64,000 bases of DNA from Polynucleobacter sp. MG-5-Ahmo-C2 (lineage in GTDB: Bacteria; Pseudomonadota; Gammaproteobacteria; Burkholderiales; Burkholderiaceae), in assembly GCF_018687735.1 (NCBI RefSeq), contig NZ_CP061304.1, positions 558,001 to 622,000 on the forward strand. Reading direction: 5' to 3'. Below, piece by piece: positions 48,243 to 50,703 of the stretch. The stretch's first letter is position 1; each line of letters starts with the position of its first letter. Below the pieces are notes generated by a model. It did not search any database and was not told the DNA's origin. It saw nothing but the letters and a program-made list of their open reading frames with translations. Both the position numbers and the translations under genes were made by a program.

Positions 48243-48258
48243 CTGTATAAACATACAG
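48243..48258. promoter_or_regulatory. LexA (SOS) box upstream of umuD
   Basis: CTGTATAAACATACAG has the CTG-N10-CAG pattern of the Gammaproteobacteria/Betaproteobacteria LexA box. It lies 7 bases before the first umuD ATG and overlaps likely -10 elements (for example TATAAA at 48246), so LexA should block transcription. Start codons in frame at 48266, 48272 and 48284 leave the umuD start uncertain. Confidence 0.92.
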
Positions 48259-48265
48259 TATATTA

Positions 48266-48766
48266 ATGACTATGACACATCAAATGAATCCTGCCAAAGT
48301 AAGTCTTAGTCAAGAACCACAAGCCTTGGCGGGGCATTTTGCCGTCTATGAGCTCAAGCTCTTGAGTCACCGGATTTCAGCTGGATTCCCTAGTCCGGCA
48401 GCAGATTACGCCGAAGACGGCCTAGATCTGAACCATTATCTGGTCCAAAACAAGCCAGCCACCTTTATGTTCACCGTGAAGGGTGACTCGATGCTGGGTG
48501 CTGGGATTTGTGATGGTGACAAGGTAGTGGTTGATAAAGCCCTGAAACCAAAACACAAAGATATCGTGGTGGCGGTGGTTGATAGCGAATACACCATTAA
48601 GCGTTTGTATCAATTGCGTGGTCGTATTGAGCTTCAAGCGGAAAACCCCAACTATCAAGCCATCACCTTTAATGAGGGTAGTGAGTTACAAATTTGGGGA
48701 GTGGTAGTTGGGGTGGTACGCAAGTACAGTAACGCGAGTACGAGATATAGCAAAGGTACACAGTGA
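48266..48766 (+). CDS. umuD: UmuD, SOS mutagenesis autoprotease
   Basis: The 166-residue protein (from the first ATG) belongs to the LexA/UmuD S24 family. Self-cleavage is expected at A39-G40 in [13 protein letters not shown]75 in GDSMLG and K112 in YTIKRLY form the Ser-Lys dyad and keep the same 37-residue spacing as in E. coli UmuD. Cleaved UmuD' is the partner of UmuC in DNA polymerase V. It overlaps umuC by 1 base (TGATG). Confidence 0.95.
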
Positions 48767-50082
48767 TGAGCGCACGTTCTGAAGATTCGCTAAGCCCACT
48801 TTTTGCACTCGTTGATGTGAATAACTTCTATGTTTCTTGCGAGCGCGTGTTCCAGCCGAAGTTAGAAGAGGTGCCAATGGTGGTGCTCTCGAATAATGAT
48901 GGTTGTGCAGTAGCACGTAGTGCTGAAGTCAAAGCACTGGGCGTGAAGATGGGAGCGCCTTGGTTTCAGATGCAAGAGCTGGCTAAAAAGCATGGTATCA
49001 AGGCTTACTCATCCAACTACACCTTATACGGCGATATGAGTAGCCGTGTAGTGCAAGTGCTCAGAGCCTTTACGCCAAATTTAGAGGTTTACAGTATCGA
49101 TGAGAGTTTTCTGCAAATTGAAACTGTCCTAAAGCAATACCAGGACACAGTTGAATTGGGTCAAAGGATTAAGCAGCAAGTCAAAGACATGACTGGCTTA
49201 CCAGTCTGCGTTGGTATTGGCGCTAGTAAGACCTTAGCAAAGCTTGCCAATCATTTGGCCAAAAAACATCAGCAGTTCGCTGGCGTATGTGATGTGAATG
49301 CCATGACAAAACCAGAGCGCTATCAATGGATGAGCGAGACCGAAGTTGGCGAAGTGTGGGGTGTTGGTAGACAAATTGCCAAAAAACTCAAAGCCCAAAA
49401 TATTCATACCGTATTTGATCTCTTGCAGGCTTCACCACAGGCAATGCGTCAACAGTTTGGGGTCGTGATGGAGCGCCTTTGCTATGAGCTACGCGGCACC
49501 TCTTGTCTGCAACTCGAAGAGGTAGCGCCAGCCAAGCAACAAATTATTGCCTCACGTAGCTTTGGAAAACCAGTTACCAGTCAAGCGGAGCTTGCTGAAG
49601 CGGTTGCCACCCACGTAGCACGAGCAGCCGAAAAATTGAGAACTCAAAATAGCATTACGGGCGCGCTCACAGTATTTATTCAGACTAACCCGTTTAAACA
49701 AAACGAGCCACAGTACTACCAAAGCGTCACTATTCCGCTCGCAGATGCAACAGACAACACGCTAGCATTAACCAACGCAGCGCTGGCAGGTCTTAAGAAA
49801 ATATATCAACCTCACTTTCGTTACAAGAAAGCGGGCGTCATTCTGAATCTGATTGGCGATAAGCCAAGCGTACAGCAATCCTTATTTGAGGATATCGAAA
49901 GTAAAGGAAAGTCAGCACATCTCATGAAAGCCATGGATGAGATCAACAATCGCTTTGGTAATGCAGCAATCCGATCTGCGGCTGCAGGAACAAATAGCAG
50001 TAAACAAGAGTGGCAAATGAGATCGAGCAATAAATCGCCGAACTACACCACCAAGTGGGATGAGTTACCAGTAGCTAGATAA
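48766..50082 (+). CDS. umuC: UmuC, translesion DNA polymerase V catalytic subunit
   Basis: The 438-residue Y-family polymerase starts at the ATG at 48766, though a GTG one codon upstream is possible. [15 protein letters not shown] holds the first catalytic aspartate. SIDESFL holds the second acidic pair. [17 protein letters not shown] is the helix-hairpin DNA-binding part, and the C-terminal little finger follows. It copies past DNA lesions when the SOS response is on. Transcription should be controlled by the LexA box before umuD. Confidence 0.96.
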
Positions 50083-50116
50083 ATGTAATAAAAAACAATA
50101 CACAAAGGAGAAGCAA

Positions 50117-50248
50117 ATGGACTTACTAAATAACTTTAATGGAATCTCTCTCGCCGTGATCATGGTTCTGTCATATTGGGCGGTATTGAAAAACACCAAG
50201 CGGCATGCAGGTGAAACGAAGCAAGTATTAAACGGTACTTATCGGTAA
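50117..50248 (+). CDS. 43-residue membrane peptide in the umuDC operon
   Basis: A short gene with an ideal AAAGGAG (50104-50110), 6 bases before the ATG, lies 34 bases after umuC and before the operon terminator. It encodes an N-terminal polar segment, a single transmembrane helix (about residues 10-24) and a basic cytoplasmic tail (KNTKRHAGETKQ). I do not recognise the family. Position between umuC and the terminator, with no promoter or terminator seen before it, puts it under LexA control. SOS-linked small membrane peptides elsewhere (such as TisB, or division inhibitors) make a toxin or division role conceivable, but that is inference. Confidence 0.7.
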   Translation: MDLLNNFNGISLAVIMVLSYWAVLKNTKRHAGETKQVLNGTYR

Positions 50249-50281
50249 AGTAGTAGCCAGAAAAGAGGCGGTAGGTAGAGG

Positions 50282-50325
50282 GGGAATAAGGAAATCACGG
50301 ATTCCTTATTCCCTTGTTATTGTTC
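50282..50325 (+). terminator. Terminator of the umuDC-peptide operon
   Basis: A 12-bp perfect stem (50282-50293 with 50302-50313) with an 8-base loop is followed by a T-rich stretch. From 50326 to 50607 no gene is seen; a near-palindrome lies at 50566-50582. Confidence 0.9.
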
Positions 50326-50607
50326 GTTCCCGACAACTGAATATCTTCGGTATCAGAGTTTTCTTGTAGCGAAATCATCTCCTACCTCTTTCACTTATTT
50401 ACTCAAACTTCTACGCTGAGCTCTTCAATATGGAGGAGGGCTTGTTTTGCGAGTTTCTATTGAGTGTTCTCATAAGCAGTTGCAACTATTCAGAGTTTCA
50501 TTAGACGCAAGAACTGTCCTAGTTTTGGCAATTATTTGGATGATTTGGGGAATTTTCAGGATTGTGAAGATCTTCTGAAGATCTGCTTTTAATATGGGGG
50601 AGGGTGG

Positions 50608-50703
50608 ATGAGCCAAACCCCCGGCACTGGCAGAAAATGGGTTTGGCTGCTTCGTTCCCGACCTGACCAGGTTATCCAACCCACCATGCGGGGAGGCCCA
50701 TCC
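50608..50703 (-). ncRNA. ffs: Signal recognition particle RNA (4.5S-type)
   Basis: The minus strand gives GGATGGGCC at the 5' end pairing with GGCTCATCC at the 3' end (with one G-U). The internal GGTCAGGTC...GAAGCAGCC is the conserved SRP54/Ffh-binding tetraloop region, with loop GGGAACG. The length of about 96 bases fits the small bacterial form. It works with Ffh to target membrane proteins. It is divergent from dnaX; a -10-like TAAAAT lies at 50709-50714 on the minus strand. Confidence 0.92.

Follow-up and report, generated by a model that had tools for sequence, protein, structure and literature searches.

Judged by its conservation and its pattern of substitution, the 43-codon open reading frame directly behind umuC in the window (the whole 64-kb stretch of DNA analysed, from a genome of one 1.82 Mb contig) is a genuine gene, and one that belongs to the genus Polynucleobacter. 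It is very probably translated, and its product is probably bound to the membrane. The frame, called here simply the ORF, takes the third place in a umuDC unit made up as follows (coordinates are those of the window):

48243..48258, no strand assigned: LexA-type operator CTGT-N8-ACAG (CTGTATAAACATACAG), 5' of umuD, seen in the sequence
48266..48766, + strand: umuD (Pfam Peptidase_S24, E 8.8e-31)
48766..50082, + strand: umuC (Pfam IMS, E 9.8e-39; IMS_C, 7.7e-23; DUF4113, 6.6e-21)
50105..50110, + strand: Shine-Dalgarno sequence AAGGAG, seen in the sequence, 6 nt 5' of the ATG
50117..50248, + strand: the 43-codon ORF, third gene of the umuDC unit, encoding a predicted single-pass membrane peptide (conservation in the genus and in-frame constraint)
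50141..50188, + strand: predicted hydrophobic helix, codons 9-24 of the peptide (GISLAVIMVLSYWAVL; Kyte-Doolittle, charge, AlphaFold2)
50280..50315, + strand: hairpin of 14 pairs in the window, with loop ATCACGGA at 50294-50301 and a covarying stem

The pattern CTGT-N8-ACAG occurs nowhere else in the 64 kb. The original prediction is borne out as to the order of LexA box, umuD, umuC, and small gene, and also as to the Shine-Dalgarno sequence, which falls within the spacer of 34 nt between the umuC stop codon and the ATG of the ORF. It had further held that no promoter or terminator separates umuC from the small gene. That is so in this genome, where a consensus scan of the window (which covered the antisense strand as well) found no promoter-like or terminator-like site on the + strand of the spacer, but it does not extend to the genus, where a promoter-like module stands in the gap in 58 of the 115 umuC-linked copies. 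On the far side of the hairpin, on the opposite strand, is the gene for the small SRP RNA (50604-50702), and beyond it a gene that we take to be dnaX. At the near end of the unit, the LexA box and the first ATG of umuD are 7 nt apart, with no visible Shine-Dalgarno sequence (48259-48272), so the umuD message may be nearly leaderless.

Evidence that the ORF is a gene

In an initial search that covered 61 genomes, 24 of the 37 from the genus, the source genome among them, had strong matches (E of 1.4e-8 or lower), and 4 of the 24 from other genera had matches that were no more than weak (E of 0.16 or higher). Weak matches were also noted in G035, G026, and G034. Within the genus, a profile of 22 rows matched the ORF (E <= 0.001) in 116 of 186 genomes, at 119 places that reduce to 118 distinct sequences. 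The search of a profile against 5.8 billion proteins returned 272; among the 120 of these that were listed, most were nameless, and the organism names given were either Polynucleobacter or unspecific. A scan of named genome contigs added 67 loci, all of them titled as Polynucleobacter except metagenome bins, whose titles read uncultured beta proteobacterium, Betaproteobacteria, or Burkholderiaceae. Among the strong matches of the 61 genomes, the proteins listed (at least 120), and the 67 contig loci, none bears the name of another genus.

The substitutions are those of a coding sequence. Over 25 codons in 115 copies (the two copies that stand alone and the decaying L088, described below, were left out), pN/pS is 0.117 in frame as against 1.14 and 1.80 in the other frames, these being uncorrected values summed over all pairs, which ignore shared ancestry and saturation. 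For comparison, the C-terminal part of umuC gives 0.184 (110 rows). The ratio is nearly the same in the 58 copies with a long gap behind umuC (0.116) as in the 57 with a short gap (0.120), while the other frames of the ORF give at least 1.03, and on these figures the ORF is tightly constrained also where LexA is the sole visible control. Mean entropy at codon positions 1, 2, and 3 is 0.30, 0.14, and 0.99 bits, and a clear Shine-Dalgarno sequence (a score of 3 or more by our own script) precedes 111 of the 118 copies. One might still suppose that the frame is open by chance and goes untranslated. That notion was rejected on the in-frame constraint, and since the variation gathers at third positions, the Shine-Dalgarno sequence is conserved, and the profile search found 272 proteins, it deserves next to no credence. 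Strong constraint within the frame is what makes translation very probable. The original prediction proposed to check whether the frame persists behind umuC in relatives and changes mainly at synonymous sites, and the outcome is strongly in its favour.

Linkage to umuC and the copies that stand alone

The ORF lies directly behind umuC, or a remnant of it, in 115 of the 118 distinct copies, and 117 of the 119 places are at the umuDC locus. Three copies are exceptional. In one (L088, in G086), umuDC has been lost and the LexA box now stands before the ORF, which has the replacement Y20D and an early stop and looks to be in decay. The other two, L094 (G171) and L095 (G016), are orphans. In four further genomes (L089-L092), umuC is broken and the ORF intact, although assembly errors are possible; since the ORF (130 bp) is ten times shorter than umuC (1.3 kb) and would be expected to escape damage more often, an intact ORF beside a broken umuC is weak evidence of independence.

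Seen from the side of umuC, which was matched in 168 of the 186 genomes of the genus, the two genes occur together in 114 genomes, umuC alone in 54, and the ORF with no umuC match at the cut-off in two (G086 and G101). Where the listed umuC match reaches 75% identity or more, as it does in 112 genomes, the ORF is present in 111; in the remaining one, G129, the sequence reads N behind umuC. From the 54 loci with umuC and no ORF, 20 were fetched, namely G129 and 19 others, and no similar ORF was found behind umuC in those 19 (49-73% identity; one contig ends 441 nt past umuC). On a tree built from 129 umuC rows, those with the ORF, plus G129, are set apart from the rest by a single branch (92/64.8 support, not starred). 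Four of the 20 fetched loci without the ORF (L084-L087, which are the most distant but one) are left out of this tree, as are the ORF loci L088, L089, L093, L094, and L095. A umuC lineage at 62-63% identity (L080-L083) carries, about 70 nt behind umuC, an unrelated conserved ORF of 76 aa with one N-terminal hydrophobic segment.

Orphan L095 (G016:C1:1330500-1334500) encodes a peptide of 33 aa, has a regulatory dyad of its own (of the kind considered in the next section), and lies directly before a gene for a C-5 cytosine methylase with a MerR-like N-terminus, which faces a gene for an Eco47II-type nuclease. The same 19 kb also holds a WYL regulator and two more dyads, as well as a gene that we take to be integrase-like, for which Pfam gave no match. 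Perhaps, then, this was once a mobile gene, selfish or directed against phage, that settled behind umuC and has been kept there for some reason unrelated to the SOS response. The methylase and nuclease neighbours, the presumed integrase, and the WYL regulator with its dyads all suit such a history. The placement of 117 of 119 places at the umuDC locus does not, nor does the single clade that they form on the umuC tree, nor the result that L094 used as a query brought up three proteins only, all close to L094 itself. We regard a mobile past of this sort as unlikely. Origin from a phage was considered and rejected: the sole match in IMG/VR (L232) is a piece of contig with umuC, dyad, ORF, and hairpin in chromosomal order.

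Control regions at either end of the ORF

Control of the operon by LexA, as originally predicted, is supported by a LexA-type box before umuD in all 20 loci examined, ten with a long gap between umuC and the ORF and ten with a short one. In the source genome, the strict form TACTGT-N8-ACAGTA is found at three places only, before umuD and before two genes that we take, from their sequences, to be recA and mraZ. The box near the putative mraZ, presumably the head of the division and cell-wall cluster, is perfect and about 215 nt upstream of it (G000:C1:145001-145020; L098 1002-1021).

The gap between umuC and the ORF falls into two classes, 25-72 nt in 57 copies (the window's included) and 106-227 nt in 58. 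Every one of the 58 long gaps contains a dyad, GCTCA-N5-TGAG(C/T), as do both orphans, and none of the 57 short gaps does. At an identical distance from the dyad there is a sequence resembling a -10 element, TA-N-(C/T)-CT (TANYCT), in 57 of the 58 long gaps and again in both orphans. Dyad and TANYCT are probably the ORF's own promoter, with the dyad so placed that a regulator bound to it would overlap the -35 region. On the umuC tree (113 scored rows), the state of the gap changed at least 25 times, a count that rests on 560 nt and may be affected by recombination. Since both orphans have the dyad, the changes are read mostly as repeated losses. The gene probably began as a unit of its own and repeatedly lost its promoter, which left it to the LexA operon.

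What might read the dyad? Defined more strictly, the pattern turns up in 63 of the 186 genomes and never in the reversed control. Away from the ORF it was found 35 times, on 33 occasions within 5 kb of a gene for a WYL-domain regulator and on 17 within 600 nt; most of the fetched instances, not all, precede short genes that start with a hydrophobic segment (judged by eye). The regulator has WYL and WCX domains, and its solved relatives include PafBC and other WYL proteins, some of them presumably the damage sensor DriD. The distribution of the regulator fails to follow that of the ORF's dyad. A match to the WYL protein of the genus was found in 26 of 58 long-gap genomes and in 18 of 57 short-gap genomes (Fisher p 0.18, kinship ignored), which leaves 32 long-gap genomes with none. 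The whole WYL family (PF13280) had no match in 10 of 11 long-gap genomes, picked partly because they had earlier shown no close WYL match, and the source genome has neither dyad nor WYL match. The WYL protein is therefore unsupported as the reader of the ORF's dyad, and with matches missing from over half of the long-gap genomes, the link of that dyad to DNA damage is weak.

At a number of loci (L183 3334-7034, L185 5656-9592, L192 3110-7658, and others), a WYL regulator stands in an island with short genes and dyad-TANTCT modules, and several of the short genes begin with a hydrophobic segment. The island in L183 encodes two further proteins, one of the HAD_SAK_2 and one of the DUF3857/transglutaminase kind. 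Two dyad modules face each other, at a distance of 1.4-3.9 kb, in seven genomes (G073, G004, G016, G149, G124, G125, and G109).

Behind the ORF, the window has a hairpin of -19.5 kcal/mol (z -4.06) with no match in Rfam at E <= 1. Among the 116 non-orphan copies, 108 carry the same invariant loop of 8 nt, 26-97 nt behind the stop codon. In these 108 rows, which display 44 distinct stems, each of the stem pairs 1-13 is formed in 102-108 cases, and there is covariation at several pairs (A-T/G-C, G-C/A-T, A-T/C-G, and T-A/C-G). The hairpin is absent from six copies that form a subgroup with another type of peptide tail (L020, L021, L093, L159, L160, and L167) and from L155, which is at a contig end; the loop of L101 differs by one base. 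Orphan L095 has no hairpin, and a loop match 290 nt downstream of orphan L094 was discounted, as it is inside the neighbouring gene.

The exact core of the hairpin occurs 94 times in 93 genomes, once in 92 of them (the source genome has its one copy) and twice in G021, where the locus is present in duplicate. All but two of these cores are within 400 nt of an ORF place, the two being those of G079 (at a contig end) and G129 (where N follows umuC), and on this account a family of repeats was rejected. The structure had been taken for a terminator with a stem of 12 bp. A hairpin there is, but the T-tract is weak in the window and many copies have no T-run directly past the stem, so the label of terminator is unsupported. 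That the loop stays invariant while the stem covaries points to a factor that binds there, or to an element that protects the end of the transcript, more than to a simple terminator. The ACGGA within ATCACGGA is, we assume, a candidate CsrA-like motif. Pairing between the loops of dyad and hairpin was also entertained, by eye, and dropped: the dyad loop varies and the hairpin loop does not, and short-gap genomes have no dyad.

The peptide and its possible role

The 118 copies encode peptides of 33-47 residues, mostly 43-47, with a single hydrophobic stretch (residues 8-24, maximum Kyte-Doolittle mean 1.81). The mean net charge is -0.7 before this stretch and +2.1 over the ten residues after it. 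AlphaFold2 predicts one helix from residue 2 to 41 with a mean pLDDT of 72 (90 for the block 11-20). A hydrophobic helix of this short length, positively charged on balance at its C-terminal flank, supports the prediction of a membrane peptide, and under the positive-inside rule the N-terminus would be outside and the C-terminus inside. The conserved core reads N-N-F-N-G ... L-S-Y ... V-L-K-N-T-K-R, and beyond residue 29 the tail is variable. Ten positions are invariant in the 22-row set (N5, N6, N8, G9, S11, S19, Y20, V23, K25, and T27), a few of them broken in copies outside it, for example by D at position 20 in L088.

Searches of Pfam, NCBIfam, PHROGs, and PDB turned up no convincing relative of the peptide, the lowest E values being 0.018, 0.045, 0.28, and 0.79, respectively. 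The CcoQ/FixQ subunits of cbb3 oxidases resemble it in size and in having one helix, but they differ in gene context, since 115 of 118 ORF copies are behind umuC rather than between ccoO and ccoP. The weak match L025 (E 0.16) is flanked by genes that are presumably ccoO and ccoP, and in view of its score and its cbb3 context, homology to CcoQ was rejected.

With its 33-47 aa, one helix, predicted location in the membrane, and a LexA box before the unit by which it is presumably controlled, the peptide has features to be expected of a small membrane peptide of the SOS response (under about 75 aa). In E. coli, TisB of the type I system TisB-IstR is of this kind, LexA-controlled and preceded by a long regulated leader. 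The ORF peptide, likewise small, hydrophobic, and linked to LexA, might similarly permeabilise the membrane and slow growth, promoting persistence. The ORF, however, starts right behind umuC with a strong Shine-Dalgarno sequence, at 34 nt in the window and 25-72 nt in the short-gap copies, which leaves no room between the two for a long regulated leader. Moreover, the polar residues conserved in the 22-row set (N5, N6, N8, G9, S11, S19, Y20, K25, and T27) suggest specific contacts rather than bulk pore formation, and the hydrophobic moment (0.25 on the Kyte-Doolittle scale, residues 9-24, a value with no comparator) seems low. A peptide acting as TisB does is accordingly quite improbable.

Other members of the class act on division. 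In Caulobacter, SidA (29 aa, under LexA) and DidA (71 aa, under DriD) are proposed to block the FtsW/I/N complex (PMC4211646), and the transmembrane helix of YneA binds FtsW (as stated in PMC13396833). The likeness of the ORF peptide to these three is one of size, topology, and regulation only. It shares with SidA, an inhibitor of division that acts on FtsW in the inner membrane, the condition of a tiny membrane peptide under a LexA box, but it is longer and encoded within a umuDC unit. DidA, an inhibitor of division under a LexA-independent damage regulator, resembles it as a small single-pass membrane protein (a prediction for the ORF) and in its second, LexA-independent control, which for the ORF is suggested by the dyad module, found elsewhere near WYL genes. 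The parallel with DriD fails at the activator itself, as over half of the genomes with a dyad before the ORF lack a WYL gene, and the source genome, which has no dyad, has no WYL match either. Like YneA of Bacillus, whose helix binds a membrane partner, the ORF peptide would be SOS-induced, but YneA has an extracellular LysM domain, for which the ORF peptide has no room.

The reading that we favour, tentatively and at rather less than even confidence, is that the peptide is a membrane effector of the damage response, most plausibly one that binds a membrane protein of division or the envelope and so delays septation during lesion bypass. The gene would at first have been under its own regulated promoter (dyad plus TANYCT), and repeated deletion of the segment with the dyad would have left it under LexA alone. 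In the source genome, with no visible element between it and umuC, the gene would be co-transcribed with umuDC and made only upon cleavage of LexA. The peptide would then insert in the inner membrane, its basic tail in the cytoplasm, and through its partner hold back septation while lesions are bypassed, much as SidA, DidA, and the membrane part of YneA may do. There may be a vacancy for such a brake. Of the 61 genomes searched, none had SulA (PF03846) over the Pfam cut-off, with a single weak match beneath it in G016, nor was SulA among the Pfam matches of the 22 peptide rows at E <= 1, so the genus has room for another means of restraining division in the SOS response.

The near-complete linkage to umuC suits equally well the main rival, a membrane partner of polymerase V that holds UmuC (or UmuD2C) at the inner membrane or aids its release or turnover, thereby restraining the polymerase in space. 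The presence of the ORF in 111 of the 112 genomes with a close umuC, the one exception reading N, is as expected of such a partner. Furthermore, UmuC of E. coli is held at the inner membrane before UmuD is cleaved, and the pertinent passages of the two papers (PMC4552617, PMC6375631) name no tether. On the other side, the more distant umuDC lineages fetched from Polynucleobacter do without the ORF, orphan copies and a promoter-like module of its own exist, and the ORF is intact beside a broken umuC in four genomes (barring errors of assembly). Nor is E. coli known to need such a gene in order to hold UmuC at the membrane. We think this alternative possible, if doubtful. A fuller version of it, somewhat less probable again, is that the peptide serves polymerase V alone as its membrane partner: having arisen with a promoter of its own, it would have been taken up behind umuDC and have repeatedly lost the promoter so as to be made in step with UmuC, which it would restrain at the membrane or release from it, and it would be accompanied by an mRNA element whose invariant 8-nt loop marks where the message ends.

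The tie to polymerase V that was originally proposed therefore has the linkage (115 of 118) in its favour, and against it the two copies that stand alone and the separate module in 58 linked copies. Orphans with the module, together with its presence in half of the linked copies, make the peptide look like an independent unit captured by the operon and not like a subunit of the polymerase. Sequence data alone cannot decide between effector and partner: the orphans and the module speak somewhat for the effector, the linkage for the partner.

Small membrane peptides linked to DNA damage are already known as a class, and to this small set the ORF would add a new family of sequences without convincing relatives. 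We know of no other such peptide encoded in the operon of a mutagenic polymerase, and the literature searched yielded no paper on this gene, its placement in umuDC, its two regulatory states, or its 3' element, which is no proof that none exists. Should the peptide act on UmuC, it would bear on the way in which polymerase V is kept at the membrane; should its target be division, it may provide Polynucleobacter with an SOS brake on that process, no SulA having passed the cut-off in the 61 genomes. Lineages in which the gene is under LexA alone and lineages in which it has retained its probable promoter, separated by at least 25 switches on the tree, offer a natural comparative test of what SOS timing is worth.
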